Positions 8,993 through 55,175 of a stretch of 64,000 bases of DNA are shown here, piece by piece. Origin of the DNA: Branchiostoma floridae (taxonomy: Eukaryota > Chordata > Leptocardii > Amphioxiformes > Branchiostomatidae). A program made the translations under genes and the position numbers. The stretch lies in NCBI RefSeq assembly GCF_000003815.2, contig NC_049996.1:16321452-16385451 (forward strand). The letters are read 5' to 3'. Below the pieces are notes generated by a model that saw only the letters and a list, made by a program, of their open reading frames with translations, had not been told where the DNA came from and ran no database searches. The first letter of the stretch is position 1, and every line of letters begins with the position of its first letter.

Positions 8993-11567
8993 TTATTCCA
9001 CGGAATCAGTTTCCCCGTCCGGCTCTTCCGTCGGCTCGCACACGAGATCGTCAGCGCCAAGAGTCCCGAGGAGCCGTCGGTTCAGCGGCTCGGGTTGCAC
9101 GCAGCGAATACGGGACACGATCGCAGTGGGACAGAGGTCGGGGACACGCTCCATGAGACAGTCGCACAGCCAGGGGTTCCCAGCGAGTTTGATGTGGAGC
9201 TGACCCTCAGGCAGGCTGCGGCACAGGCCGGGGGGGATCATTTTCAGACGGTTGTTCCGAAGATCAATCTGGATCTGCATAGAACACAAAAAACAGTCAT
9301 GGTTAGCTATAGAGGGGAAGAGTTGCCTGCAGTGCTAATTGTGTCCACCAGGAGGTACTACTGCACAGGCTGCGGCACAAGCCCGCGGGATCATTTTCAG
9401 GTCAATCTGGATCTGTGCAGTCATGGTTTGTGGTTATCTACAGAAGGGAACAGTGGCCTGCAGTGCTAACTGTATCCACCTGGAGGAGCTGCTACACAGG
9501 CCAGGCGGGATCATCTTCAGATGGTTGTTCTGCAGATCAGTCTGGATCTGCACACTCAGGAAGCAATGTACAATAGTACAATGCTATAGTACAATGCTAA
9601 ACTTTCTTTTAACACAAAAGAATACATGGATAAAATTTTCAACAACCACTGTCGCCTTCTTCAGGTAATAATGACCAGTTAGTTCCGAACGAAACTTGCA
9701 AGAGTTAGAACATACGCCAGCCCTAAATGGTGTCATGCAACTGACTCAACAGAACAAAGATAAAAGCTGGGAACCTTTGCGTCTTCATTGCCGACGTCGC
9801 GGAAGCAGAACTTGTCGACAGCGCGGAGGTTCATCCTGCGCAGGTGGAGGCGAAGTTTGGAGGAGTTGGTGGCCACGTTGGTGAACATCCCGCGGTTGAA
9901 CCGCTGCACGTTGTTCCCCTGCAGGTCCAGGCTCCGCAGCTCCGTCAGGTTAGCGAACACGCCCTCCGCGATCATCCCGATACGGTTATACGCCATGGAC
10001 AGCACCTGGGGCAAAGGGCAAAGGTTAAAGCTCTGTGAGGTTAGCGAACACGCCCTCCGCAATCATCCCGATACGGTTGTATGCCATGGACAGCACCTGG
10101 GGCAAAGAGCAAAGGTTAAAGCTCCGTCAGGTTAGCGAACACGCCCTCCGCGATCATCCCGATACGGTTGTATGCCATGGACAGCACCTAGGGAAAAGGG
10201 CAAAGGTTAAAGACCATGAACAACTTCTAGGGATAAGGGCAAAGATCAAAGGCCATGGACAGTGCGGAGGCACAAGGTCATTGACAGTACCTTGGGATGG
10301 GAGCAAAGGTTAAAATCCATGGACAAGATCTAGAGAAAAGGGCAAAGTTCAAAGGCTATGGACAGCATCTACAAGCATATATAGGGTTAAGGGCAAAGTT
10401 TAAAGGTCATTCGCCCAACCCAAAGATAAGGGTGAAGGTCATGGATAAGGGCAAAGGTTAAAGACCACAAGCAACACCTGTGAGGGCAAAGGTCAAAGGT
10501 GTTGAAATCTGACTTACCTGCAGGTTCTCTATGTTCTGGAAAATGCCGGGGTCAAGGTGCATGACCCTGTTGTTGCTGAGGTCGAGGGTCAGCAGGGAGG
10601 TCATATTCTGGATGGTGCTGATGGAGCTGATGTTGTTCCCGGCCAGGTTCAGCGTCTGCAGGTTTTCCAGCAGGCCGATGGCTGCAGGGATTTCCGGCAG
10701 CATGTTGTAGCGCAGCCCCAGTTCCTTCAGGTTCCCCTCCAGACCACTCAGAATGGCAGACACTCCTAAAGCTAGGAACTCAGACATGTTAGACTGCAGG
10801 GATTTCTTGCTGAAAACACAGACTTCAGAGATTTTCTGCAGCTGGAAACACTCACAATCACATGATAGACTTAGGGACTTTATGCAGCTAGAAAAACAGA
10901 CATATTAAACTGCAGGATTTTCCTGCAGCTAAAAACGCAGACATGTTTGATTGCAGGCATTTTCTACTGCTGGAAACACACATGTCAGATTGCAAGGACT
11001 TCCTGACAGGCATTCCAGGTCATTAGGTCAACGGAAGATACCACAATTTAATGGGTAGGTACCTGTGATCTTGTTGAAGCTGAGGTCCAGCACCTTGAGG
11101 CTGCCGAGTGGCTGGAAGCTCCCGTCCTCAATGATGCTGATGTTGTTATGGATGAGCGACAAAGACGACAGCTTGTCCAACCCGACGAACGTTTGTGCCG
11201 TAACCGTGGTAACCATGTTGTAGTCCAGCGCCAGGTGCTGTAGGTTCTGAAGGTCGCTGAAGGACCCATCCTCAATGTCGTTGATGCTGTTGAAGTGAAG
11301 GTTGAGCTTCTCAAGGTCGGCGAGCCCGGCAAGGTCGTTGGCGTTGAGTTCGGTGATGTAGTTCCCCTCGACGTGAAGCTTGAGCGTTTCTGCCGGGATT
11401 TCCTGTGGAAATTCCTCCATGCCCTTGTACCGACAGTCCACGGTGTGGTCGTCCGAACAGTCGCACACACCGTCACCATCGTCGTTAGAGCAGGCAACCT
11501 CTGCAGAGGTCATCGCCATGGAGACCAGACACCCGATCCAGAACAGCTTGTAGTGCCAGATGGCCAT
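8993..11567 (-). CDS. Secreted leucine-rich-repeat protein (LRRNT-LRR-LRRCT), 4 exons
   Basis: Predicted 423-aa extracellular LRR protein. Exons on the minus strand: 11567-11063, 10771-10518, 10005-9775 and 9274-8993 (TAA). Phases fit throughout. A hydrophobic signal peptide (about residues 1-23) precedes a Cys-rich LRRNT cap (CSNDDGDGVCDC...VDC), then about ten LRRs of the LxxLxLxxNxI type, and an LRRCT cap near residues 365-420 (NPWLCDC, then C-x6-C spacing and a final VCEP). There is no membrane segment or GPI signal, so the product should be secreted. The architecture resembles amphioxus VLR-like and SLIT-type LRR proteins; ligand and role are unknown. The exon 2 acceptor (CCTAG) was chosen because only it keeps phase and gives a regular LRR; the exon 3 donor (AAG|GTTCCC) is weak. 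Exons 3 and 4, and probably 2, have tandem copies of their 5' edges in the preceding introns. Confidence 0.88.
9358..9560 (-). repeat. Exon-edge array: two decoy copies of the LRR exon 4 5' end
   Basis: Upstream (minus strand) of real exon 4, which starts at 9274, are two diverged copies of its acceptor and first 50-60 coding bases, at about 9417-9360 and 9556-9490. Both keep TGCAG or CACAG before ATCCAGA(T/C)TGA(T/C)CT and both keep TGA(A/G)ATGATCCC. The nearer one has lost about 15 bases. If spliced in, they would add partial LRRCT sequence. Confidence 0.8.
9945..10500 (-). repeat. Exon-edge array: 91-bp units copying the LRR exon 3 5' end
   Basis: The acceptor and first 70 or so coding bases of exon 3 (encoding VLSMAYNRIGMIAEGVFANL) occur three times at 91-bp spacing; plus-strand TAGCGAACAC starts at 9951, 10042 and 10133. 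They are followed to 10500 by increasingly degenerate units of GGGCAAAGGTTAAAG. 91 is not a multiple of three, so the copies sit in different frames. The second copy keeps the CCCCAG acceptor and its reading frame; in the third the acceptor reads CCCTAG. Confidence 0.88.
10772..11010 (-). repeat. Acceptor-proximal minisatellite before LRR exon 2
   Basis: About six imperfect 38-47-bp units (plus-strand CAGACATGTTxGACTGCAGGGATTTTCxTGCAGCTGGAAA) fill the intron end just before exon 2. In the transcript sense each carries a CCTGCAG or similar, i.e. a potential 3' splice site. The relation to coding sequence is less clear than at exons 3 and 4. Confidence 0.6.
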
Positions 11568-13815
11568 GTTGGCTTTTACTTGTAAATTCTGTAAAGAAAA
11601 AGTGACATTTCAGTCTTAGCACACAATTAACTTTCAATCAAATTCCATGTTCTTTTACAAAATACGGGATTCGGACGTTGGAATAGATGATACGAAATAC
11701 ACTGTTGTATTCTATATGTATATCTTTCAGGTAACATTTTAGCTTCACTGGAGCTAGACCTATATTCCACTGTCATATATAACAAGATTTTACTCACGTG
11801 GCAGTATTTATTCAGTAGTATGTACTATTCTAGTGCAATGGCACCTGGTAGAATCATGAGAGTTCATGTCACTTATAGGGGTTTAGTCATGTGACCTTGC
11901 CCCAGCAAGACTCGGGAAACAAGCTGTCTTGCAACTTTATAATACGATATCTCGGCAATGCTATTACATATATTGACAAAGTACACATCAAAGTAAAGGA
12001 ACTTTGTTGTTAAATCACACAGAATTACATATGATCTGTCTCGAGATATTTTACAGAACGCACTAGAGGTTCTCTCCTTGAAAGATGATAAAACAAAATC
12101 TACTTCCAGATCTCCCGTTTGCTGGCACTGGTTTCCGAAAGCGGTCGTTTAGGTCAGACAAACCAGCTCTGCTCTAATCAGTACCAGAACTCGTCAGGCA
12201 CAACATTCAACAACATCCAGTAGGAATTGGGTCAGGTTGGAGTAACTTTAGATGCTTCAAGTCCTTAGAATTATCCAGATAATGCTTTTATCTACAACTG
12301 AAGCGAATGTCCAGATATGGTGATCAGTTCCTTTCAGTTTGGTAACTGATTTCCAAGGCGTTGAAGGGAGCCCTTACAAAATCGTAACAAATCGAGATGA
12401 ATGAAAAATGATATTCCATAACATACTATAGTGAACAAAAGCCATGAATAGGAATAATTAAAGATAGGATTAGTTCTGCAATGTCCTCCAGTTCGGTGGC
12501 TAATAAGTGGTTCGCAGCTGCCAAGTGATCTTGCATCTTGATAAGGTGGAGATAAGCCCAAGTCTTATTAAAAAGCTTGGAGGCAACTTTCAGTGATTCC
12601 AATGTCTCACAACTATACACTGCAAGTTGTGGTAAGCTGACTCAAAGCAAATTTTGTTTAAAACATATATTGAATCTTCCATCTTTTTTATGTGAAATGT
12701 TTTAAGTTTTGTTGTAATTGATGCATTCAATGAGATTCAGTAGTTGAGCACCAAAGGTGATTGACAAGAACGATAGACAGGACTCTTAACTCTGGGTACA
12801 TCCTTAAGTGAGCCCAGCTGTCAAGGTCAAGTGGCAGAGTTTGACCTTGTGAGAGCAGGAGAAACACCTTTAGCTCATCATCTTTAAGTTGTTCTCAAAT
12901 AATCTATGAGAAATTTCAGCATTGCAAGGAGCCTTTCTAAAGTTCAGGCTGTCTTAGATACCGTTACTGCAAGCATAGTAGAATCCCTTGATCAGTCTTT
13001 ACAGGGAAAAAGCTCTAGAACGTTCCTTATCTTTGGTTGGTATCTTTGGTAAGAGGAGTGAGGAGAACTTACCTTTGGTTCTTAAGGAACAGAATCAAGA
13101 CGAAGGTTTCTACAAGACGCTCCTTAAGTGTCCCTCCTACCTGAGTTCAGATCAGTGCAGGGTGATGTCCTTCAAACTGGCCCAAGGGCGTGGAACAATG
13201 GAGGAGTCTGGCTAGCGCTGTTCTGTACATGTGTGTCTGTTTGTGAGGGGCTGAGATAGAACAGGGGGCAAAGGTCACCTGGAGCTGGGATTGGCCGAAG
13301 GTCAACGAGGTCACATCAACTTGTTCCAAGTGATTCTGGGAGAGACAAGGCTGGCTTAGGGCCAGGGGAGGGAGGGAGCAGGGTGGATGGAACAGCCCGG
13401 GCCATACCAAGCTGATTTGTTGGTTTTTTGGATTTTTCCAAAAATGATGCTGAACTCGAAAATAAATGTGAAAAAAGGAGAAAGTCTTGATCTACACAAG
13501 CGTCAGCGAGGGTCCTTGTTTTTAGGAATGGATAGAGACTCAAATTTTCCACTTGGGTAGCAAAATAGGGAGGGAGGATAATAGATAGAAGAGTCTACTC
13601 CTGTCTTTAGTAAAGTTTAGAGATGTTGGATTTGCTACAAGTTCGTCCGCAGCTTTGGCAAGTTAGGTTGTTGGATTGTAATGTGATAAAACCTGCAGAA
13701 CAAAGCCCAGATGTTTGGTATTTGATACCAGTTGGCCTCAGATCAAGTCTGTAACATTTTGGGGTGTGACACTATAAAAGTTCTGGCAGCAAAGCCAACA
13801 CTTCTGGCAGCAAAC

Positions 13816-20400: not shown

Positions 20401-23400
20401 TCTAATACATCGTGACTCACCAACTTACAGATTTCTGAAGAACTCCGCTTCATGATGCCGACTCCAGAGAACTTGGAGCTCCTCAGATTACTGAACAGTC
20501 CCCACATCAGGGTAAGGTTGTTACTGAACTGTCCCCACTGACTAATGTTGCTATGGTAACACCTTAGTATGGTAAAGTAGATGTGAAGAAATTATTTTGT
20601 GTTCTCTAACACTTAATTCTCTCTCACAAACATGAACAGGTAATCACACAATCCTCACATGATTATCACATGTCTATCACATGTTAATTACATGATAGAA
20701 CATTAGAACATGAGATGACCTTGACATGCCCCCCTCCCCCATTCAGGCTCTCCTGTCTTCCCACGACCGGGTGGCCAATAAGGAGTTCTCCCCGCGTCTT
20801 CCAGAAGTCGAGTCCGACTTTGAGGAGGAGGATCAGTCTCTCAAGGTCGTTCAACTGGTCAAGAATGAGGAACCACTGGTCAGTACGCGTCATGGTTGTC
20901 CGCCATTTTTATCTTTATCAAGAAGGCTAGTATATTTTAGGTAATGTTTATCTGTGTATATTTTAGTCAAGATAACTCAAGAATGGCTAGATAACTTGGT
21001 TTCATATTTGCCGTGTTGGTAGGTTGTGACAGAAATTGGAAATGATTAGATTTAGGTGCGAAATTTTGGTTTGGATATCCCTTTTTCTGTACCAGCTTTG
21101 ATCTGGATTTCTTGGTGATAGATTTTAGGAAGAACTCTTATGCCACTTGGCAGCATGTTGTTTGAAATCTTTTCCATAACATGGAAATTTTGTGTTTGAC
21201 TTGGATGACTACAAAACTCAATAAACTTCTTTGAATTTGGAATTCATTCTTCATGGTCACCTTGTTGATTGATTTTCAGGGAGCCACGATACGGCTGGAG
21301 GAGAAAACGGGTCAGATCTTCATCGCCAGGGTGATGATTGGCGGCGCTGCAGACCGCAGTGGCCTCATGGCGGTCGGCGACGAGATCTGGGAGGTGAACG
21401 GGATCTCAGTTCGCGGGAAAACGCCGGACGAAGTCGTTCAGATTCTGAGTAACGCGGTGGGAACGATCACGTTCAAACTGGTGCCGGCAGACCTGGACCT
21501 CAGGCCTCCCAAGGACAGCAAGGTAAGCACATGCCTGTCACATGATGTTCACATGATCATCACATGATAATCATGTGTACTCTGTATATACTTTGTTTGA
21601 CCCTTGCATCTTCCTTCATGACCTCAATGAAAAGCGGCCTGCAGGCTGATTTGAGCTTTCATGAATAAACAAAGGTTCAAACAAATAAATATGATGCAGT
21701 TACAAGATGTCCACGTGATGTTCACATGATCCCTACATTATCGTCACTAGACCTTCGCTTGATGCTCACATGTCGATCAGGACATGTGCAAGGTCACTGT
21801 AACAGTTACTCAAGCAACTGGATATCATTCTGGAAGAGGTTAGATGTTTCAGATAGCAACCAGTAACTTTTGTCAGTGACATCTGACTGTTTCCAAAATC
21901 ATACCATGATGTTGCTTGAGTAGCTGTTACCATGTATACTTATGTCCTGGACGTTTACCTTCAATATGGGATCGGGACATGCTTTTAACTATTCTAACTA
22001 TTCACTCATCTGACTGAAGGCATCCACTGTACTGTACTTTAAGTCTAAAGAATTCATGATGCATATCTAAGAAAACAACTAATGTAACTTTAAAGCCAAG
22101 TAACAGTTACTCAAGCAACTGGATATGATTTTGGGAAAAGTTACATATGAATCTATATCCAGTTGCTTGAGTAACTGCTATTTGGCATATCTTATTACCT
22201 GGATGTCTAACATTCACCAACGTTCACCAATGTATCTTTTGTGTTGAATTCTCTGCTATGTCTTCTCTGCCATGAATGTTGCCATCTTTACTCACGGCTA
22301 ACACTGCTCTGCCCCCCACACGCTGCCAGTTGGCTCCCCCCCTCTGCCCCTCCCTACCACCCTCCTCCCTACCCCCCTCTGCGACCACCTCCCAAAGCAG
22401 CATACTCTCCTGTATTGAGGAGGTGGATGAGGAACAGGTAGGATAACACTAACGACTTTCTTAACATCTTCATTGTCAGTAGAGGTCATATTTCTGCATG
22501 GCTCAAGTTTGGTATATTTAGATAGATAAAACAAGAACTTTGCGTAGAACTCTCTGATACAGTGTGGTCATGGGAGCTAGTTTTCTTCACAAGGACAGTA
22601 GCTTTTCCTATGGTATTGTCGTACCATAGGAACTTAATAACATGATTTACATGAGTGACATTTGCATACAATCCTTACATGTTTAACCATTTTTTCTACT
22701 TAGATATACTTGTATTGAATTGTTCTGCCAGTTCATTCTAGTGACGCTGCAGAAGCGTGATGGATGTCACTCGAAACATCCTGAAGGTTTTATCCAGTTG
22801 TAGAGATTGAATTGTATTTGAATATTGTTTACCTGGATGTCTAACCTACATAAACATAAAACATGAAACTAATTATTAAATGACAATAATAAGGCCAATT
22901 ACGACGTAAAAGGGCAACACTGCCGCCGCAGCAGTGTGCTGAAAGTCATGAAATCAAAGTGTATTTTTTCAAGTCTTGAGATTTTCTGAATGGCCACTGA
23001 CTGCCTTTCTGCCCTTTCCCCCTCCCAGGTGCGTATGAAGCTCACTTTGACTACGATCCTTTCAAGGATAAGAATAAGTTATATTTAATGATAGCACTGA
23101 CGAAAGGCAATGCACTTCTCCTGTCCCAAAATGGCCACTGACTGCCTACCTCCCCCTTTCCCCCTCACAGGTGCGTATGAAGGCGCACTTCGACTACGAC
23201 CCTTTCGAGGATAAGAACATCCCGTGTCGGGAGGCGGGCCTTCCGTTCCAGCGCGGGGACGTCCTGCACATCGTGAACATGGAGGATCCGAACTGGTGGC
23301 AGGCGCGCCGCGAGGGCGACCGGAACTGTCGCGCCGGGCTGATACCGGGCAGGCTCCTACAAGAGAGGTGAGCACATGATATTGAAACAACCAGAGGAGC

Positions 23401-29239: not shown

Positions 29240-29758
<519 letters not shown>

Positions 29759-31849: not shown

Positions 31850-32052
31850 GAATGCAAATTTTATTTCATCATTTTATTTCGCGGTTTTTGCGTTGTAAAT
31901 TTACCGTGAACTTAAAACCACCGCAAACATTTTTTTCCATGGAAGTAAGAGACTTCAGTGCATGGCACTACCGCGAACTTAAAACCACCGCAAACAGTCC
32001 TTTTTCCTGCTACCGCGAGACTAAATCCCCGCGAACTTAAATGCATTTACAG
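31850..32052. repeat. MITE family A, diverged copy
   Basis: Contains TTTATTTCGCGG..., CGTGAACTTAAAACCACCGC and ends CCGCGAACTTAAATGCATTTACAG. The left terminus is eroded. Confidence 0.7.
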
Positions 32053-32641
32053 GTGTTGACAACTGTACAGAAATCTATTGACAAAAAATACTTTAATGTG
32101 GATCAAGTACATTTGGAGTTCGTTGAATGTGTTTCCATGTCTCAATAGATGCATGATCAACGGACATTTGTGAAATATTAGTGGTTTATGGTCCCTATAT
32201 GTGACTATTTAAATTCATATATCACCAATTACTCAGATTATTCCTGGTATAGAATGGAAATTAATTGAAGCACCTTGGGAATCAAATATTGATTTAAAAA
32301 AAAAAGTAAATTCAGGACAATGTCAGCTTCTTTCCTTAATCATACTTCAATTCATTCAATTGCTATTGCAATAAAATACAGCATACATAGACTAGTATTG
32401 GAGCCTAAAATGAAATGCTAGGTTCTTGTGTACATGAAATGATAGCAGTCCTGATCAGTAACATACATCAGATGTGTTCAATAAAAAAAAAACACATACA
32501 AGGAATCGAAATGTTGTCCAATTACGAGATAATGTCTTAAGTCATGTCTGAATTTTTTACATGCTGTGTTGTAGGAAATGTCTTAAGGGACTTTATCGCC
32601 CACATCATTAAACGTGTTAACTTTAACCCACTGCAAGGCAC

Positions 32642-32647
32642 TTTATT
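32642..32647 (-). terminator. Poly(A) signal of the CARD/TRADD-N/GT gene
   Basis: AATAAA on the minus strand, 40 bases past the stop codon at 32689-32687. The predicted 3' UTR would be very short. The match to the canonical hexamer and its position support the gene end. Confidence 0.5.
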
Positions 32648-32686
32648 TACACTACATGACAAAAGCTCTCCATTGTCATCAGAACC

Positions 32687-35600
32687 TCAGTCGGAATCAT
32701 CAGCTTCAGCATATCCACCCTCCGCTTGGGCACTGGGAGTGGCTGTAAAGTACAAGAATTCAAATGATCGATGAGTCAAGAACAACATTGTTATAAAGAT
32801 TGTAACAACTGGCTGTTTCATTGTTGATGGAAATATTGAAAAGTTTGCATATACATTCACACAATATTTATCTGTTCAGGTATAGTTAGAAATGGCCATG
32901 TTTTCTTACCAGTGATGCCACAGGCCCGTAGGAACGTCTGGTGAGACTCTTCCCAGTACTTGGAGGCCAGCAGTTTCTCCCTGAAGGCACGGGATTCCGG
33001 TGTAAAGCTAAATCCCTGCGCCGCGAAATACGTGAGAGGTCAGGTACTGAGGCTGCGCACTGCAGGGGAGGAGCAAGCATTTCGCAGCGAAGATTACTAT
33101 GGCAACGGCCTTTGTAGAAGCTAACAGATGTTTTGTAGTAGCCGATTCGACAAACCTGTAACTGTTAAATTGAAAAACCTATTTTTCAACAACTTTCCTT
33201 GTTTGAAATTGAACTGGCTATTTCACAATTTAATACTTATGAATAAATGCATTTAAAGGCAACCTTTCAAATGAGCTATTTGCCTTCATTGATTTAATGG
33301 GATTGAAAATTGGGACACTCCATAGAGAACCTTTAGGAATCCTTAAGATAATGATATGCAGCGGGAAAACATGGCACTGTTTTGGCGCACACCACAGCAG
33401 CAATCCTTAAGATACTAACGTTAGTAATAAATGCAGTTCCGCGAGTCCTGACTGCTCTGAGATGAGGACGGGAACTCCTGCCGCGACCAGGCCGACCAGC
33501 CCGAACGGTTCGGCCCGGGACGGCATCAGGACCAGGTGACAGGCCTCCATGTCTCGGCGGATCTCCTCTTGAGTGCCGTACGGAAGCAGGGTGGGTTTGA
33601 CCCGGCCGGAGCTCAGCTTCTCCTCCAGGATTCTCTTGCTCTCCTTGAAGTCGTTCTCATCGATGCCGCGGACTCTCAGCCTCAGTGTGTACTTATTATC
33701 AAGCCGCTGTGCTGCCTTGTCTATGGATTCTGCGGCCAGATCGTGACCTTTCAGCCTCTCCACATTCCGCACCCTGCCTATAGACAGAACGACTCTCTCT
33801 GGCTTTTGGACTTTCTTAGCTTCTTCTCCAAAGGTCACATTGGCTTCACAGAACACTTTTGAAGGTTCAGGTAGGAAGATGTGGTGAGTCACGTGTTCCT
33901 TCTGGAGGAACCTGTCGTAATGGCGGTGAATGCGTGGTCCTACCGAGAAGACGACATCAGCCTTGCCAATATCGTCCTGGATGCTGGCTTCCTTCCTCCC
34001 CACACCCAGGACCTTCTCATCACTCTTGTAGTGCTCTGTCTCCTCTGGCGCCACGTGACCGAACATGGCGAGCTTGGCATGTGGAAATCGCTCCTCTCTG
34101 ATCTTCCTTGCTGCTGTACTGGTGACATCAACATGGCCCACAATGCAGCAGACATCTGATGGGATGTGTGGAAAGTGAACGCTGTGGTACACAGTCAGCC
34201 ATTCTAAGGACGGCTTCGTGCTGCTGTCAGCACCAAGACGAGGCTTGAGGAGTCTCACTCCGTCTCGTTCTGCATCCCTCTCATCTTGCTGACTTGCCTC
34301 CAACACGGTAGCATAGACCTCGGCACCTGCGGCGGTGAGCACGCTTGCGGCATTCAGGTTGATGGTGGAGATTCCTCCCTTCGATGTGCTGTATTCATCA
34401 CTAAGCAACAGGACTGATCCTCTGGCTGTAGAAGAATTTTGCAAACGTAAAGAGGTTACTCTCCCAAGCTTTATCAACTATACTGTTTATTCTGTTGGCG
34501 AATAGACTAGGAAAGCATGAAGCACCAAACCTGTACATGTGCCGGTACTAGCAAAAGGGTTGAGAAGCTAGATATGTGGAATTTTGTCGAAGTCTATGAC
34601 CATCAGTATGTTGCTATTTGTCCGTTTAAAACAGGCATGTGATAATTAATCTGCTGGTCTTAGATAAGCAACACCTATAAAATGATAGAATTTACTCTAT
34701 GTTTCATATCAACTCTTGGCTACATTGCAATGTTTTGACATCGTCCCGATGGAGTGTTGACGAACGTTTCGTATCAGTCATCCTTGTTTACTTCATACAA
34801 ATTTAACAAGCAGTAAAGTTTACTTTTATAATTATAAGCTGAAAATCACCTTTGGTAGCTTTGCTAGAAGCCTTTGGTTTGTCTTCTGATTCAGACAGTC
34901 TGATGCTCTTTCCAGATGTAGAGTCTTTCTCCTCAGCCGGGTCTCCTCTCTTATAACCTTGGCCCTGCCTCAGACCCTTTGCTGTGTGTTTCTCATACAG
35001 CAGTTCCTCTATTGTAGCTGCCATGCTCTTGTTTGTCACCTGGAGCTGTTGGATTTCTTCCTGTTGTTTCTGAAGTCTTCTCTGTGCTTCTTCGTCCTTC
35101 TTTCTCAGGTAGGCTGTCTCCAACGTACCGCTGAACACCGGGGCAAATGTCTGCTCTCTGGCTGTCTTTATATCATCCTGCATTGTCTCGTTGATCTCCT
35201 TTAAGTAGCGAATTTCCTCCTTATGTTCAGAAAGGACTTTTTTTACCGTCTCCTCCTCCTGCTTCATCCTTGCTACGTCCTTTCTCATGACGTCTTCATC
35301 CTGTTTGGCAGTCTTGAGCTCGCCTCTCATTGTCTGAAGCCGAATTTCCATCTGGTGTGATTTCTCCCCAGCTTTCCTCAGAGCCGCCTGTACTTGCCTG
35401 GCTGTGAACTTCAGTGTTGAGACGTCATCAGTACTACTTGAACAGGACAGGTGCTCCCTGCTGACCACCATGGCTAGGTCTAAGGCTCGCAATACAGAAT
35501 GGTCCACGTGTATTCTGGGCGGTGGCAGGGCTGACAGGTTGTCAACAGAAGTGGTACGGCCCAGTCCTGTTCATTAGGCAAAATGCATGTTGTGTCAGAT

Positions 35601-38600
35601 CTTTCATGAAGTGAACTCAGAATTAAGTACTTTTAAGAAGAAAATGTGAACACTATGACTGTACTCATTCTATTCTTTAATGTTAACAAAGAAAGTTGTA
35701 TAAGATCAGTGATAACTAGAAACTCAATTTGAGCTCGATCACATTGCAGAAGAGAGCATTGGCTGAAGATCACAAACTCATTTCTTGATAAAGACTAGGT
35801 AAATTCGGTGTTTATTTAATAGTCCATGGCTACTTCCCCTCAGCCAATGAGAAGCCCCCATTTTCTGTTGCTATATCTACATTGCATTTGGCTATGAAAA
35901 AAAAAGTGTGCTGCTATTTCATCCAAATGAGGAAAAAAGTGTGTTGATATCAAGAAAACTGTGGTGATATCAGCCTGAAAACTAGGGGTGCTATACGCAC
36001 GTGACCTGTTCTGACCAATCCTGGGTTACCTTTGAGACCTTCTTTTGGGACTTGAATTGTGTCATGTGATAACTGACCAATCCTACTCTAGACTTCTAAT
36101 TGCCCAGAGGAATATGACCAGACTTTCTGTCTCTCCAGGCAGTCAGCTTGGGAAGGTTTTGACAAGATTAATGACCTTGTGTTGTTGTCTGACACTGCCT
36201 GTCACAGCTTTTCAAGTAATAAGAAAGATTGTGAACTTTGAGGACAAAATAAAGTAACATTTTGTAGAGCTGATGAAGTAGAGAAGCTTCGGGGAAGTAT
36301 GCCATGGGCTAAGTTAGTTAACCTATGGGATTGGCCTCGTTTTCTGTGTAAAGCACCAGGCCAGCCACCTCGGGGATTTCCAGTCTCCCTCGGGCTTTGC
36401 CCTCAGGGAAACTAGAAACCCCTCTGTGGGCGGGCCTGGTGCTATACACAGAAACTCAGCCACTCCCATAGGTTAACTATTACTTATTTGTTTCATAGGA
36501 CAATTGAATGTGTTATGAGTGAAAAATTAAGTTAGTCTGTAGAATTTCTTACCTCTTCCCAGTCTGTTTCGAACCCGCAGATAGTCTTCATGCTTCACCT
36601 GGAGCCTCACAATCAGCTGTGTGCCCTTGACCTTGTCCTGTAGGTGTTCTGAGATGAGGATGTGTGAGAGTTGTTGAGACAGGCTGCCCTCCCCCACCCT
36701 GTAGTGGTTGTGGTAGAACCTGTCCACATCAGTCTGGCGCAGGAACGTCAGGAGGAGGAGGATGGATCCGTCAACAGCTTTCTTCAACAAAGCCTTGTGC
36801 TTTTTAAAAACTTTTCGCACTTCTTTGTAGCGTACAGGGTCGTTGAGCACCTCCACAGTAAATAGTGTACGCTCTAGTTCCAGGATTCGCTCTAAGATTT
36901 TATCCTTGGGTTCTCTGCTGATGTTCCCAGTGTGCCCCTGAGCAGATATTTGCGGCACCACAGCCAGCTGTAAGTGCACAGGAAGGACTGGATCTGTACT
37001 GTGCAGTTCTGGAGGTGGATACAAATTAAAGGGTGAATGGAAATGTTTAATATTGTGCGCACCGTTAAACCAAAATGTTATTAAAAGAGCAAAGCTCACA
37101 CAGAGTTCAAGAATCTTGAAGTTTTCCATGAATGTACAGCAAATCAGTAGTGGCTGTCATTCTTAGATGAACACTAAAATACTGTTACACAGTACTATTA
37201 GACAGACAACTTTTCTTCCCCATACTACTCTCCTTATCTAATATTCTCCAGATCTCAGAGAACCCAAAACAACCCTCTTCTTAATCTTACATCCTTACCT
37301 TGATATTTGTTCTTCAGCCCATCCACAGAGAGGCGATGTATCAAACCTGTCTGGCTTGTCATTCGAAGAATGTTTATAAATTGTTTTGTTGTGCATTTTC
37401 CACTGCCTGATAGAGTGTCTATAAGTTCTTCTGCCTTTTCCTCTTTTGTTACTTTGCTCAGGATTCTCTGCTTGTCTGTTATTGTCAACATGCCATCTTG
37501 AATCAGGTCAGGAATTACATCCTTCACCGCCAGCATGTTTCTGAGGCATTTATAATTCTTTACAATAAAGTCCTCTATGTCAGGATAAAGCCCTGCAAGA
37601 GAATGAACAACAAAGATGTGTGTCCTTTCATATTCATCACATCACACAATAACATATTTAGCCCTAACTTTGACTGTTACTTTGAATGTGTGACCGCGTG
37701 GCGCAGCGGTAGCATGTGCGGATCTGCACCGAGAGGTGGCAGGTTCGAATCCGCCTGCCGTGCCACCGATCTTGTGCCCTTGGGAATGGCACTTTACACG
37801 ACTTTCCCCACTTTACTCAGGTGAGAGTGAGTACCTGGCTACGGCTGGGGCCGTCCCTTGGATAGGATGTTAAATGGAGGTCCCGCGTATGGGGAGAGTC
37901 ACACCCCATGCACGTTAAAGAACCCCCACACGAGCGATGGTGTGGTGTGGATGGAGCAAACCATTCTGTCTGGAGTTGGTGATTTACTAAACTTGGACTG
38001 AAATTACCATGTTAGATGACATCAATGGAGCCTTAATGCAGCATAAAAACTTTGAGAATCAGTGCAGCAGTGAGCAGGAGTTTCACAAGGACAGCACAGA
38101 CAATACTTCTATGAGCCTGGAGTGTTGGTGGTTAGAACTTTAATGTCTCTCTTTAAAACAAGTAATAATTAAAGATAATCTTATGTCTGAGGAGTTAGGC
38201 TGGGTGGCCCACTGGGCAAATGCAATTGTAATAGAATCGAGGCCATCCCATATGACAGGACACCCCTTGCGTTAGGTAATACAAGGGGTGTCCTGTCATT
38301 TGGGATGGCCTCAATTCTTTACGATTGCTTAAGGAATGACTAAATCTTACCTTCTGTTGGTAATCCCTCCTTAACACCATCCTCACTCCTCTTCCTCTTC
38401 TTCTGCCCACTAGAGGTTGGTGGAGTATCTAGAGTAATATCAATAAAATCTTATGTTACAATTTTAAACCCTATATCCAAACACAGAATTAAGTACTTAC
38501 CAACAAGCTTTTGATCAGTCCTCTGATCCTTATCAAGTTGAACTGACCCAAAGCATAAGTCACACATCCAGACTGGAAGTGTGACATCAGCAAAGGGTCA

Positions 38601-38878
38601 AATGTGCCTGGAAGTCAGTATCGGCCCCCGCTTTGGGTCATTTCAACTTGATTAAGGATCAGAGGACTGATCAAAAGCTTGTTTGTAAGCGCTTAATGTT
38701 ATGTACGGATATAGGGTTTGAATTTGTAACATAATGTCGACTACCATCACAGATGAACTTCCATTCAAGTACATGTATCAATAAAATCTATTTATGAAAT
38801 TTGTAAAAATCAATGACATCGCCAAGTAGTAGTACGCGCAATCTTACCTGTGGGATCTCCCCATTGGTCCTCGGCCAT
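32687..38878 (-). CDS. CARD / TRADD-N-like / coiled-coil / GT-B glycosyltransferase fusion protein
   Basis: Eight minus-strand coding exons join in phase to 915 aa: 38878-38848 (ATG), 38428-38351, 37592-37299, 37008-36553, 35566-34850, 34425-33416, 33015-32910 and 32742-32687 (TGA). Order: basic KKRKR cluster (20-24, NLS-like); CARD (about 37-130); TRADD-N-like alpha/beta domain (about 205-283); long coiled coil (about 315-490); GT-B glycosyltransferase of GT4 type (about 527-862); acidic tail. No signal peptide or membrane segment, so intracellular. CARD and TRADD-N are signalling adaptor modules of apoptosis and innate immunity; a sugar-nucleotide enzyme at the end suggests an effector that modifies a target on oligomerisation, but substrate and donor are unknown. 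The donor of the GT exon (TTA|GTATCT) is the least certain join. I do not know a vertebrate orthologue. Confidence 0.85.
33416..34425 (-). CDS. Exon encoding the GT-B glycosyltransferase domain
   Basis: A single 1,010-nt exon. The N-terminal Rossmann half starts SVLLLSDEYSTSKGGIST (Gly-rich acceptor loop GGI). The C-terminal half holds VVLSIGRV...ERLKGHD (the Arg and Lys that contact donor phosphates in GT4 enzymes), LPYGTQEEI and MPSRAEPFGLVGLVAAGVPV. The last matches the EX7E region, but the second Glu is Val (E-PFGLVGL-V). This could alter donor choice or reduce catalysis. Confidence 0.85.
34850..35566 (-). CDS. Exon encoding the coiled-coil region
   Basis: 717 nt. After a Ser/Pro linker (SALPPPRIHVDHSVL), charged heptad-like sequence runs about 170 residues (KTAKQDEDVMRKDVARMKQE; RRLQKQQEEIQQLQVTNKSM), then a Ser/Lys-rich hinge before the GT domain. 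Suits self-association of the protein. Confidence 0.8.
36316..36478. repeat. Inverted-repeat element in an intron
   Basis: AGTTAACCTATGGGATTGGC and its inverted partner GCCACTCCCATAGGTTAACT, then inner matched blocks TTTCTGTGTAAAGCACCAGGCC / GGCCTGGTGCTATACACAGAAA. MITE of about 160 bp. Confidence 0.8.
36553..37008 (-). CDS. Exon encoding the TRADD-N-like domain
   Basis: 456 nt. The core runs KKAVDGSILLLLTFLRQTDV, DRFYHNHYRVGEGSLSQQLS and LIVRLQVKHEDYLRVRNRLG. The pattern (hydrophobic strand after a G-S-I/L turn, helix with aromatic-rich YHNHY, G-S/A-L start of the next helix, then an L-V-L-V strand and a short helix) follows the TRADD N-terminal fold. Assignment is from pattern memory; a profile search would settle it. 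Confidence 0.6.
37299..37592 (-). CDS. Exon encoding the CARD
   Basis: 294 nt encoding LYPDIEDFIVKNYKCLRNML, IPDLIQDGMLTITDKQRILS and a C-terminal helix FINILRMTSQTGLIHRL. The six-helix spacing, the (L/I)xxGxLTxxxxxxI block and the late FxxxLRxTxQxxLxxxL block are typical CARD landmarks. Confidence 0.75.
37688..37990 (+). repeat. tRNA-derived SINE with intact tRNA-like head
   Basis: A-box-like GTGGCGCAGCGGTAGCATG and B-box GCAGGTTCGAATCC form a recognisable tRNA-like promoter. The SINE body follows and is 3'-truncated after GGAGTTGGTGATT. This is the best head of the family in the window. Confidence 0.85.
38225..38322. repeat. Long near-perfect hairpin in an intron
   Basis: Arms of about 40 bases: GAGGCCATCCCATATGACAG / CTGTCATTTGGGATGGCCTC and ACACCCCTTG / CAAGGGGTGT, with a 12-base loop (CGTTAGGTAATA). 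It could be a minimal foldback element or a miRNA-type hairpin. Confidence 0.8.
38454..38730. repeat. Inverted-repeat element with about 100-base arms
   Basis: Left arm includes CCCTATATCCAAACACAG, AGCTTTTGATCAGTCCTCTG and ATCCTTATCAAGTTGAACTG; the right arm carries their complements in reverse order up to GTTTGAATTTGTAAC. It lies in intron 1 of the fusion gene. Confidence 0.85.
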
Positions 38879-38879
38879 G

Positions 38880-39205
38880 ATGACTCATACAGGTGTTAGA
38901 TATCGGTGGTTACAACACCTGGAACAGACAGGTGTGTGTCAGGTATTTGGGGTTTACACCTGGAACAGACAGGTGTGTCAGGTATCTGTGGTTACAACAC
39001 CTGTAACAGACAGGTGTGTGTCAGGTATTTGAGGTTACAACACCTGTAACAGACAGGTGTGTCAGGTATCTGTGGTTACAACACCTGGAACAGACAGGTG
39101 TGTGTCAGGTATTTGAGGTTACAACACCTGGAACAGACAGGTGTGTCAGGTATCTGTGGTTACATACAATGCCTGCAAGTTTAAAACAGACAGGTGTGTG
39201 TTAGA
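38880..39205 (-). repeat. Exon-edge array: seven copies of the acceptor before the start-codon exon
   Basis: Units of 36-45 bp (plus-strand ACAACACCTGGAACAGACAGGTGTGTCAGGTAT) occur at about 38916, 38957, 38993, 39038, 39078, 39120 and 39165. On the transcript strand each reads CTGTCTGTTCCAG|GTGTTGTAACC, i.e. a good 3' splice site plus the first bases of the 5' UTR of the exon carrying the ATG at 38878. Choice among them would change 5' UTR length only. Confidence 0.8.
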
Positions 39206-39534
39206 TGGGGGGGGGGGCGAAAAAAGCAGTCCGACTTCTTTATATCTGCATGTAGTTACCCCCTTGGTATTTTTGTGAAGGGTTACTTTACCGGTATTAA
39301 ACTTGTCGCGATAACTGATGAGCGAAATTTAGAACATAATCTAAAGTACCAGCTAGCAAATCAACTCTAATTATTCAATAGAGAGAAGTTTCAAGCCCAC
39401 GCCTAGACTGCTTCTTTCAAATCGAACAACTTTGAAGCGGGTAAAAGTCCTTAAACATTAAGTTTCTGACAAAGAACATATTCCTGGCGAATCAGAAAAT
39501 ACTTAAAATTGCTCAGACATACATGTTTACTTAC

Positions 39535-39610
39535 TTTTTTGCGACGAATCTCCCCTGAAACAAATGGCCCCGTTACCCAAACTTTACTTCCGCTTTCCGC
39601 CAGAAGGCAA
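39535..39610 (-). other. Candidate 5' UTR exon of the CARD/TRADD-N/GT gene
   Basis: On the minus strand GGGGAGATTCGTCGCAAAAAA is followed by a perfect GTAAGT donor at 39534. Splicing to one of the acceptors at 38900-39190 would place the ATG of 38878 in the second exon. No TATA box seen. The start point is a guess. Confidence 0.4.
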
Positions 39611-40144
39611 TACCATTCAGTAGTAGGGGTGATGTCCGTAATGTGTATGTTATTAAAACCCCATAAAAGTTAGATATACGCAGCAAAATGAATTACATAC
39701 TAATAAAAAGGTTGCTTTATTAAAATATTGTTTAATATATCTTGAGCCTCAGTCCGTACAATCGTTATTATGTCAACTTAACCAGAATTTTACCCTCCCT
39801 ACACCGGAGAAAATAGGCCGTTCCACGCGTGGGGTCAAGTTTCAGGTCGAACATTTTTTTATCATGAATGTTTCGACATTTTCTAGCAAAACGATTGGAT
39901 ACAACGTCACATTGATATGGAGTGTCTCTTCGTACTTTGCAACTTCCTTAAGTACGTTCTTTACAGTTGTACATAATCCTTCAAGACCCGTTTCTCTGAC
40001 AACTAACGGGCAAGGACTGTTACAGGTGTCAAAGGGACTTGTTGCTGGTGCAGTTACTCATTGATTCCGCATGGGGGCCTTTCGCCCGCCCGGGTAACGC
40101 TTCAAATGTGTCTCACATAGAGTTTGGTCGGTACTGGTTGTAAG

Positions 40145-40255
40145 AAAGGAGTAGGGACAGAAAGAAACAAATATGCCGACACCCGGGATCGAACCCGGGC
40201 TGTCAGATAACAAACACCAGCAGCGCTAACCACTACGCTACGAAAGGCCTACCCG
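40145..40255 (-). repeat. tRNA-derived SINE, minus strand
   Basis: Minus strand: GCGTAGTGGTTAGCGC (A-box-like) and CCCGGGTTCGATCCCGGG (B-box and T-arm). The 5' end GCCTTTC does not pair with the expected acceptor strand. Its T-arm region and the C(A)GAAAGAAAC tail match 23400-23500. Confidence 0.65.
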
Positions 40256-41124
40256 TGAACCAAAAGTGTACGCTCTAGTCAGTCCAGGATTCGCTCCAGG
40301 ACCAACCAATTGGCATGGTTGTTTGACGCTACTTGAACCCCCCACAGTGACACTAACATAAGGAAGCAAAGAACTAACCATTGGTCGGTTCTTTAGATCC
40401 TGGCAGGACGATTCGGCCCCTGGCCCAAAACTATAACGTTATCTCTTCAGTCCAAAAGTCCAAAAATTATGAACAGTGGTGTATGCCAAAGGTGTCAAGA
40501 AAGTCCTGTTAACATATACCCAAGGCATCTTTATGTCAAATTTCAGCCGATCAGTTCAGTTAAGTTCTGTTTATTTATTAAACAGGTTATTTGTTTTAAT
40601 ACCAAGCCACAGGGGCTTTGGTCTAAATATCACCAAAAATCCCAAATTGGGTAATTCTAAAGTGATGTGCTATGTGTGTCAATATCCTGAGGGAACATGT
40701 CCCACGTAACTTCATCCCAAATTCAGATCATTTGGTACAAGGGTTCAATGGTGCCATGAGCAAAAGACATAAATTTTTCGCAAAAAAAAAAACAAATTGC
40801 AAAAAAAATCCCAGACTAAGAAAATTTTGAAGTGGTGTCCTATGAGCATAGATGTCCAAGGTGCCGCCGAATCGTCTGGTTCAGAATAGGCGGAATTACG
40901 TTATTAACTAGCTCATTACTTTTGAACAATTAAAGTCAAAGTTCCTCCCCGCGCCTGATGGTGCATAGGGCGGCGCCCATCTCCGTTTCAGTAGCCCTGA
41001 GCCACACAGCTTTGTACAATCACTACAGCAAGGGGCTAGTCCACTGGTAGTGGCGTGTGTTCAACTTCCATACTCTTTCCCGAATGCTGAGTGCTAAGCA
41101 GAGAAAGTAGTATGTACCATTTTT

Positions 41125-52800: not shown

Positions 52801-55050
52801 AACCGAATTGATTGACAGCAGATGTAGGTGGCGCTGCAGCAGCGAAAATACCGTCCCAAGCGTGACTCAGTTTGTTTACGGAGTTTAACATAGTTACATT
52901 CGCATAATTCCACCAAGTGCCATTATACCGCCACCTTAAAAAAACGATGTTATAGAGGCCTTCTCAAGATTGAACACCTAAATATCGGAATTCTATTACA
53001 TTTACGATATCTAACATTCGGTATTGAAGACAATCTTGGGAAGAACTCTACACTAACGTTATTTTCACGTGGCGATATAATGGCACCTAGTGGAATCATG
53101 ATAGTCGATGTTAACTGTTTGTCTCCATAATTTCAGCCGTGCACTGTCCGGAGCCAACACCCCCAGAGAACGGTGGCATGTACGGCCACTCATTCTCCTA
53201 CATGGATGAAGTCAAGTTCTACTGTAATCGTGGTGATTACGTTGAGAACCTTCCAGCGTACCGGCTTGACGGCGCCGCAACGCTGACGTGTCAGGCAGAC
53301 GGCACCTGGAGTGACCCAGTCCCCACCTGTATACGTAAGACGTCATACCTCTCCAAGCAGAGGTTGGGCTTGTGCAGTTTTCTATTACCTTTCTTATGCG
53401 TTTTTTTCGACTTTCTATTTTGTTCCCTTCCCTTCATGTCCACCGTCTATGAAGAAATGGGACAAAATAGAATGCCCTACGAGAAACGCCAAAGATACAT
53501 TAAAACAGCCTGAGCCGAACCTCTGCTTGGGTGGTACCTGGGCCAGTCCTGTATTTTTCATGCCTGATGTGCTAGTAGTCTTCCATTTTAACCTGGTTCT
53601 CTTGGGAATACTATAGGGGGTAGATATTAGATATTTGTTTATCTATATTTGGAACGATAGGACTCTTTCTTCGCATACCATTTGTCTTTCTTAGCAAAGG
53701 AATCCTAGTTTTGCAAAAAAATCTTTCTCACTGTTTCAGTTTATGGATGTGCTTTGCCAGATAGTCTTCCTAACTACGGGGATTTCGGAGGCTATATCGT
53801 GCCAGCCGCGGACCCGGATCATTCGGAATTTAAACTGCATTGTGCACCTGGATACGCTTTTTATTCCGACTCGGATGGCGATGGTGACGGCTACTTTACT
53901 ATAACTTGTCAGGACGACGGCACATTTCCACGTGATGTCAATTTTCCTTGGTGTGTCGGTAAGTGCCCCCCTTTCCTCTGGATGGTCGAGGCCGTTATGC
54001 GATCAAAAGTCGATTTTGCTTCATAAATCCTTGATGTATGAATTGAAAGACAACAAAAACAAAGCATACATCAAGCGATTAAAGGTGTTTTTTTATTCGT
54101 AAATTGAATATGATTCTTGATGTATTATTTGCTCGACAGTCGCCGACTATCTATCTTTGTATGTTTTGTTGATTTTGCATCCAAAGTAAACCCCCTCATG
54201 ATGTAACATACTAGCTTTGTATTGAAGAGTACAAGCTGCATATCCAGACAGATTTATTTGATCCACTCACATTGGGAAGGACCCCTACTCCTTTCTGTAA
54301 GTGCGGCGGGTTCTCCAAGTTAACGTGCTCTAGGTGTGGCTCTCCTTAAACACTGGACCTCCATTTAATGTCATATCAGAGGGACGTCCCGAACCGAAGA
54401 TAGGTACTCATTTTCCCAAGGGGCGACGTCGGATATCAGGGTACTCAAACCAGGACCTCTAGACTTTGAGCAAAACACCCTACCATTACCCGACGCCAAC
54501 TTGAATGGTGTTTGACATTTGGGTAGAGTGGATAAATACCCCAGTTTTTTTTTTATCTTCAAATATTTTGTCATATAGGCCTTGTCCTTTAAAGTAACAT
54601 CATTACGCTTATTGCCATTTTTGCCATTTTTTTTAAAACTCCCGAACTCCAGAGGAAGGGTCACTAACCACTGGAATTCTTTTGGTTAGACGTCCGGATT
54701 GCATTCGGCGGAGCAGTTGAAATTTTCCACAATGGATGGGGCACAATCTGCGGTGACGGGTGGGACCAGGAGGACGCGGTGGTGGCATGCCGTCAGTTGG
54801 GGTTCCGTGCCAATCCTCCCTCTGTGCAGGCAAGCACAGTGGACCCGCAGCCCGGCCGTAGAGTGTGGCTGGCTGATGTGGACTGTAGCGGAGACGAGTC
54901 CCGTATTGTAGACTGCACCCACAGTGGATTGCCCGACGGACGGGACGGTCTGCCCAACTGCGGTACTGGAGAGGCTGCAGTGGAGTGTGGTGAGTCACGC
55001 AATCGCTATAAGTTATTTAGAGAGTTTATATATAGAGAGAGAGAGAGAGG

Positions 55051-55081
<31 letters not shown>

Positions 55082-55105
55082 AGAAAGAGAAAGAAAGAAA
55101 AAGAA

Positions 55106-55175
<70 letters not shown>

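Follow-up and report, generated by a model that had tools for sequence, protein, structure and literature searches.

Eight minus-strand segments between positions 32,687 and 38,878 of a 64,000-nucleotide stretch of the Branchiostoma floridae genome join in phase from ATG to TGA and encode 915 residues. The stretch (hereafter the window) is C18:16321452-16385451 of a 513-Mb, 431-contig assembly; C3, C5, C12, C16, C17 and C18 are contigs of that assembly, and L-numbers denote fetched loci. We consider this locus best explained, with a probability of about 0.7, as a lancelet-expanded intracellular immune adaptor in which exon-shuffled Death-fold, TRADD-N and coiled-coil modules are combined with a variable effector, here a decaying GT4 glycosyltransferase. 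The plan of such a family would be CARD or Death, then TRADD-N, then a coiled-coil-like segment, and finally GT4, TIR or NHL. An earlier note, made from the letters alone, had proposed an eight-exon gene for a CARD, TRADD-N, coiled-coil and glycosyltransferase protein. The in-phase chain and the donors of six of its seven introns (scores 8.8-11.3 on a frequency matrix) hold up, but its intron 6 (33016-33415), with a donor score of -0.8, is a repeat insertion. The features of the locus, in the order of transcription, are as follows.

38848..38878, minus strand: exon 1, with the start codon (MAEDQWGDPT); donor score 11.1.
38351..38428, minus strand: exon 2, with a basic KKRKR stretch; weakly similar to a stretch upstream of the Death exon of L046.
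37299..37592, minus strand: exon 3, CARD, domain core 37327-37554 (PF00619 match).
36553..37008, minus strand: exon 4, TRADD-N-like domain with a G-S motif in the predicted b2-b3 turn (paralogues, alignment and model).
34850..35566, minus strand: exon 5, coiled-coil-like segment (genome relatives; sub-threshold Pfam matches).
33431..34425, minus strand: exon 6, GT4-conflict glycosyltransferase with a broken 3' end (PF20706); 33416-34425 in the earlier note's model.
33486..33487, minus strand: site of an in-frame deletion (6 bp absent compared with paralogues), with loss of the second Glu of what we take to be the EX7E motif (paralogue comparison).
32996..33414, no strand assigned: 419-bp fragment of a dispersed ~1.7-kb terminal-inverted-repeat element, at the paralogues' GT4 coding position (repeat search).
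32910..32995, minus strand: residual C-terminal GT4 coding sequence, in paralogues one exon with 33431-34425 (paralogue comparison).
32910-33015, minus strand: exon 7 of the earlier note's model, its first 20 bp inside the repeat fragment.
32687..32742, minus strand: last exon, common to the C3 GT4 genes (tblastn 82-93% to L009, L010 and L014).

The glycosyltransferase assignment is borne out by a direct profile match. The GT4-conflict family PF20706 scores 211.8 bits against a cut-off of 26 (E 2e-62 for the whole protein), far above the general glycosyltransferase families on the same protein (42.3 and 38.4 bits). Among solved structures the domain finds distant glycogen synthases and group-1 glycosyltransferases (best E 1.8e-4). 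The PF20706 alignment spans only profile positions 1-319 of 385, i.e., less than a complete GT-B domain.

Comparison with paralogues shows two lesions at this end of the protein. The proposed intron 6 lies almost wholly within the 419-bp repeat fragment. Nine further genome places match this fragment at 90-94%, from query position 47 to 464 or beyond; seven of the nine show their end of 49-51 bp (query 416 to 464-466) again, inverted, on the other side, delimiting elements of 1715-1870 bp. Relative to the paralogue at C3:32302675-32302883, the window is without 142 bp (~47 residues) and carries 434 bp instead, mostly repeat fragment. Almost all of the fetched C3/C5-type GT4 loci (12 of 13) align straight past the intron-6 point, to residue 371 or beyond, the exception being L024 (C3:32.26 Mb), which is interrupted near the window's break, stops at residue 331 and resumes with its tail ~1.8 kb further on. 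The donor of intron 6 (TTA/GTATCT) ranks at the 45th percentile of the region's 352 GT dinucleotides. Without this splice the frame runs into a stop at ~33407. We therefore rejected 33016-33415 as an ordinary intron, its donor being at the level of a random GT and its sequence that of a repeat insertion.

The second lesion, an in-frame deletion of 6 bp, converts GLEAIAAG to GLVAAG. EX7E thereby loses one of its two Glu, the second, and reads EPFGLVGLV in the window. We scanned 33 loci for this motif (L009-L038, L043, L069 and L072), a set mostly fetched by high profile score and hence biased towards intact copies. The motif was matched in 32 of them, all 32 keeping the second Glu, and the unmatched L033 reads EPFGLVALE. 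Because the repeat takes the place of the C-terminal residues and this Glu is deleted, the GT4 in the window is most likely dead or truncated, and its activity very probably lost.

The GT4 exon bears signs of past constraint. Sites with agreement among 8 or more of 11 paralogues show 12 synonymous and 6 nonsynonymous changes unique to the window (neutral P 1.5e-4); three single paralogues given the same treatment showed synonymous and nonsynonymous counts of 6 and 7, 6 and 1, and 4 and 5. Pairwise ratios of nonsynonymous to synonymous substitution rates (dN/dS) between the window's GT4 exon and the 11 paralogues range from 0.166 to 0.301. The excess of synonymous change and the low dN/dS suggest that the exon was under constraint until recently and that its lesions are young.

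Upstream of the glycosyltransferase, the assignment of 37299-37592 to CARD was confirmed directly, as exon 3 alone matches PF00619 at 39.0 bits against a cut-off of 23.9 (E 8.1e-10, profile positions 8-83 of 85). Its nearest relative in the genome lies at C18:7155085 (57%). Exon 5 has relatives at 18 genome places at E up to 1e-6, its own place included, and its Pfam matches are all sub-threshold, several of them to coiled-coil families such as ATG16.

The TRADD-N identity of exon 4, likewise proposed in the earlier note, is reached through its paralogues and a motif, the direct Pfam scan of the window's own exon being empty. Relatives of exon 4 occur at 55 genome places at E up to 1 (own place included), 21 of which overlap PF20694 places by position, 13 of them above the cut-off. 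We aligned the window with 23 of 30 fetched loci (alignment A1, 24 rows), omitting L039 (the window itself), L051 (in-frame stop), L053, L054, L056 and L057 (partial) and L066 (duplicate). Across A1 one Gly is invariant, and the next residue is Ser or Cys in 23 of the 24 rows. The text of Kaur et al. (PMC8195603) gives as the TRADD-N motif, for the b2-b3 turn, a tiny residue and then Ser (or Cys); in exon 4 the G-S pair falls between model strands 72-78 and 82-88. PF20694 matches six of the 24 A1 members (best 4e-11) and PF09034 matches three weakly (best 0.029), with the window's own exon in neither group. An hhalign comparison joined ten close members (A2) to seven distant members (A3), six of which contain PF20694, with a probability of 98.6%. 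The AlphaFold2 model of exon 4, with a predicted local distance difference test score (pLDDT) of 83.8, runs as strand, three helices, two strands, three helices, strand and helix, and in a Foldseek search with this model the solved TRADD-N 1f3v_A ranks 8th (E 0.17, template modelling scores 0.36/0.34). Given the transitive link through PF20694-positive paralogues, together with the turn motif, we take the domain as probably TRADD-N by descent. The opposite view, that exon 4 is unrelated to TRADD-N, was rejected on that link, although direct Pfam and PDB scans are unsupportive. Separately, a dense array of PF20694 (TRADD-like_N) exons was observed at C17:18.30-18.90 Mb, holding 50 of the 98 places found.

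We compared architectures across the genome by position on one strand, which does not imply single-gene status. The order TRADD-N, coiled coil, GT4 recurs at two other loci, L069 (C12) and L072 (C18:7.14 Mb), whose GT4 frames are free of internal stops. At L069 the exons run Death, TRADD-N, coiled coil and GT4 on one strand, with Death in the position of CARD; its sites are phase 1, and the coiled-coil exon ends in a phase-1 GC donor. L072 has phase-1 TRADD-N and GT4 sites and a phase-1 coiled-coil donor scoring 12.7, and ~8 kb upstream of it stands a CARD-TRADD-N exon with an in-frame stop. At L051 (C18:7153147-7156416) a single frame encodes both CARD and TRADD-N and contains an in-frame TAA; the locus is probably a decaying relative. 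Other fronts and ends were also found. L041 and L042 (C16) have Death, TRADD-N and then one exon comprising coiled coil and NHL; L046 (C5) has Death ahead of TRADD-N and coiled coil; and at C18:16.19 Mb a TIR exon (L071 136-702) follows the TRADD-N and coiled-coil exons. At the last site, a GT4 exon was also observed ~5.6 kb upstream of TRADD-N. By position, GT4 within 7 kb of TRADD-N is commoner upstream (11 of 55 places) than downstream (3 of 55). In the window, introns of phase 1 stand on both sides of exons 2-5. Because the TRADD-N and GT4 exons are phase-1 in the three loci examined (the window, C12 and C18:7.14 Mb), such exons could be swapped without breaking the frame.

The GT4 end of the locus has its nearest kin elsewhere. 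It is 84-89% identical in amino acids to near-full-length C3/C5 copies, and DNA similarity of 80-82% continues through the last intron and past the stop in three of the nine loci compared (L009, L010 and L011), showing the GT4 cassette and last exon to be close kin of the C3 GT4 cluster. At the only C3 locus read upstream (L070 with L010), Roc-COR, Death and FIIND exons stand ahead of GT4. As a side observation, at 19 of 32 places matching the N-terminal part of FIIND, a GT4 begins on the same strand no more than 6 kb downstream (C3:31.9-33.3 Mb; L070 2658-6403, L010). The second FIIND frame of L070 contains HFS, which we take to resemble the self-cleavage site of NLRP1, a protein that frees its tail by FIIND self-cleavage.

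A bacterial and archaeal comparison returned 66 loci, four of which were examined by Pfam. The eight best full-length bacterial matches are 29-32% identical to an alignment led by the paralogue L010. A Streptomyces relative is a CATRA-N-GT4 protein, and in Myxococcaceae (L073 895-5167) a Piwi-domain frame directly precedes the GT4-conflict frame, both of them conflict-like settings. These settings agree with, but do not prove, the derivation of GT4 put forward in the text of PMC8195603.

Taken together, the following mechanism can be proposed for the adaptor family. Once an upstream signal has arrived, the protein would be recruited or nucleated through CARD contacts and clustered by TRADD-N together with the coiled coil; in intact members clustering would bring GT4 onto its target, to which a sugar would be added. 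What this locus now encodes would be no more than an adaptor carrying an inert remnant of GT4, or it may be turning into a pseudogene. The earlier note's idea of a clustering adaptor, with a lineage-expanded glycosyltransferase as effector, is in line with what the text of PMC8195603 says of GT4 and TRADD-N proteins, but the window copy, with its second EX7E Glu gone and 142 bp replaced, is unlikely to serve as an active effector. A broader scheme is conceivable, although we hold it at somewhat less than even odds: a mix-and-match lancelet immune system with a TRADD-N and coiled-coil core, CARD or Death in front and GT4, TIR or NHL behind, in which FIIND-GT4 genes exchange their GT4 cassette with this system at the DNA level and could release the glycosyltransferase by FIIND self-cleavage, and in which the window copy is a young chimera already disarmed by a transposon. 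If this exchange of ends is real at the transcript level, it would be a concrete chordate case of immune effectors built by exon shuffling, with a bacterial-conflict-type glycosyltransferase as one exchangeable end. The C12 and C18:7.14 Mb relatives, with their uninterrupted GT4 frames, make the effector idea directly testable, and the window copy cautions against taking a repeat insertion for an intron.

Several observations weigh against our preferred interpretation of a shuffled adaptor with a decaying GT4. For exon 4 of the window, no Pfam family (PF20694 and PF09034 included) was found at E up to 1, a profile search of PDB gave no match (best E 0.23), and Foldseek with the model gave none at E 0.001 or below (best E 0.011, to cyclases). 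The coiled-coil assignment, likewise, is based on sub-threshold family matches. The remaining two of the four bacterial relatives scanned (L075 and L078) are without a further Pfam domain. Broken GT4 copies are not confined to the window, several C3 matches being partial or containing stops. That the exons are adjacent and in phase is no proof of a single mRNA. Finally, other individuals may carry an undamaged allele, and the locus may still be expressed, because its GT4 exon appears to have been constrained until recently and its upstream exons are open.

The strongest competitor overlaps with the preferred explanation and takes the whole locus as a non-expressed pseudogene, which we regard as unlikely yet well worth keeping in view. 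Two lesions in the last module fit this account, as does the enrichment of immune-type domains among dispensable lancelet genes in the text of a 2025 study (PMC12373286), which reported presence/absence variation enriched in immune domains. It is opposed by the open upstream exons and their good splice sites, and by the fact that synonymous changes outnumber nonsynonymous ones in the GT4 exon, although this is evidence of the past only.

It is improbable, in our estimation, that two neighbouring transcription units are present, the first an adaptor gene (CARD, TRADD-N and coiled coil) that finishes with exon 5 and the second a truncated GT4 gene derived by copying from the C3 family. Exon 5 extended into the following intron does meet a stop codon, and at the DNA level the GT4 exon and its 3' end are related to the C3 type. 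Yet exon 5 is separated from the GT4 exon by just 424 bp, with a good donor and a phase-1 join, and the same order with phase-1 sites occurs at C12 and C18:7.14 Mb.

The earlier note's model as written, in which splicing removes the repeat like any intron and leaves a working 915-residue CARD-TRADD-N-GT4 effector, has a slightly smaller chance. The joined exons stay in frame up to and including the last exon, common to the C3 genes, and an AG acceptor is present 20 bp inside the repeat edge. Against this, the intron-6 donor is far below the other six, and even after splicing the ~47 C-terminal residues would still be missing and the second EX7E Glu lost. Least probable is an inert GT4 kept as a decoy or sensor, a pseudo-enzyme on a CARD/TRADD-N adaptor. 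In its favour, exon 6 still forms one open frame of ~330 residues despite the lesions; against it, such a frame is also expected from simply recent lesions, and no other locus without the EX7E Glu occurs among the 33 scanned, most of them chosen for a high score.

At the 5' end of the locus, exon 1 has no relative among the fetched loci compared. Exon 2, whose KKRKR stretch is presumably a motif of the nuclear localisation signal type, weakly resembles DTSQPSSGPKKRK-SENGDK in L046, upstream of the Death exon (E 3.3, 65% over 20 columns). A tandem repeat with a 41/84-bp unit lies directly upstream of the start codon, at 38889-39164. No tRNA gene was found in positions 32000-41000 of the window. 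In a scan of the neighbourhood, ten frames were picked from 90 and seven of the ten had a match; neighbouring frames at 9736-11609 (minus strand), 21235-21564 (plus), 29396-29758 (minus), and 53115-53510 and 54668-55114 (both plus) carry LRR, PDZ, MCM, Sushi and SRCR domains.

The earlier note knew of no vertebrate protein with this order and suggested that it may be lineage-specific. Proteins of this kind were in fact already on record, as GT4-TRADD-N fusions in cephalochordates were published by Kaur et al. in 2021, whose text counts 46-71 cephalochordate TRADD-N copies of the DEDD2 clade (PMC8195603); among the papers listed, this is the one that treats both TRADD-N and GT4. Novel immune domain combinations in amphioxus were described, according to the text available, in 2008 (PMC2575513). 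No paper was found under the term 'GT4-conflict'. What appears to be new, as far as literature searches show, is the order with CARD first and GT4 last, together with the variety of ends and the damage done by a transposon, although the figures of PMC8195603 may show this order.

Compared with the GT4-TRADD-N proteins of cephalochordates, hemichordates and cnidarians as the text of PMC8195603 describes them, the window copy shares the fusion of a conflict-type GT4 with a TRADD-N-type domain, the lineage-specific expansion, the Death-like domain beside TRADD-N and the variable flanking effectors. Their published order places GT4 ahead of TRADD-N and LRRs after it, an architecture not matched in the window, where TRADD-N precedes GT4, CARD comes first and GT4 is last and broken. 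With bacterial GT4-conflict proteins (CATRA-N-GT4 and others) the window copy shares the Pfam family PF20706, whereas the partners seen there, among the four loci examined of 66, are CATRA-N or an adjacent Piwi gene in place of CARD and TRADD-N. The C3 GT4 cluster is like the window copy in its highly identical GT4 (84-89% in near-full-length copies) and its last exon, and unlike it in that locus L070 begins with Roc-COR, Death and FIIND instead of CARD, TRADD-N and coiled coil, and in that the C3 GT4 frames fetched are mostly uninterrupted, L024 being interrupted. Vertebrate TRADD and DEDD2 are without an enzyme module, and the Death domain of TRADD is C-terminal, but they have in common with the window copy, by the text of PMC8195603, the combination of a Death-fold domain with a TRADD-N-type domain.

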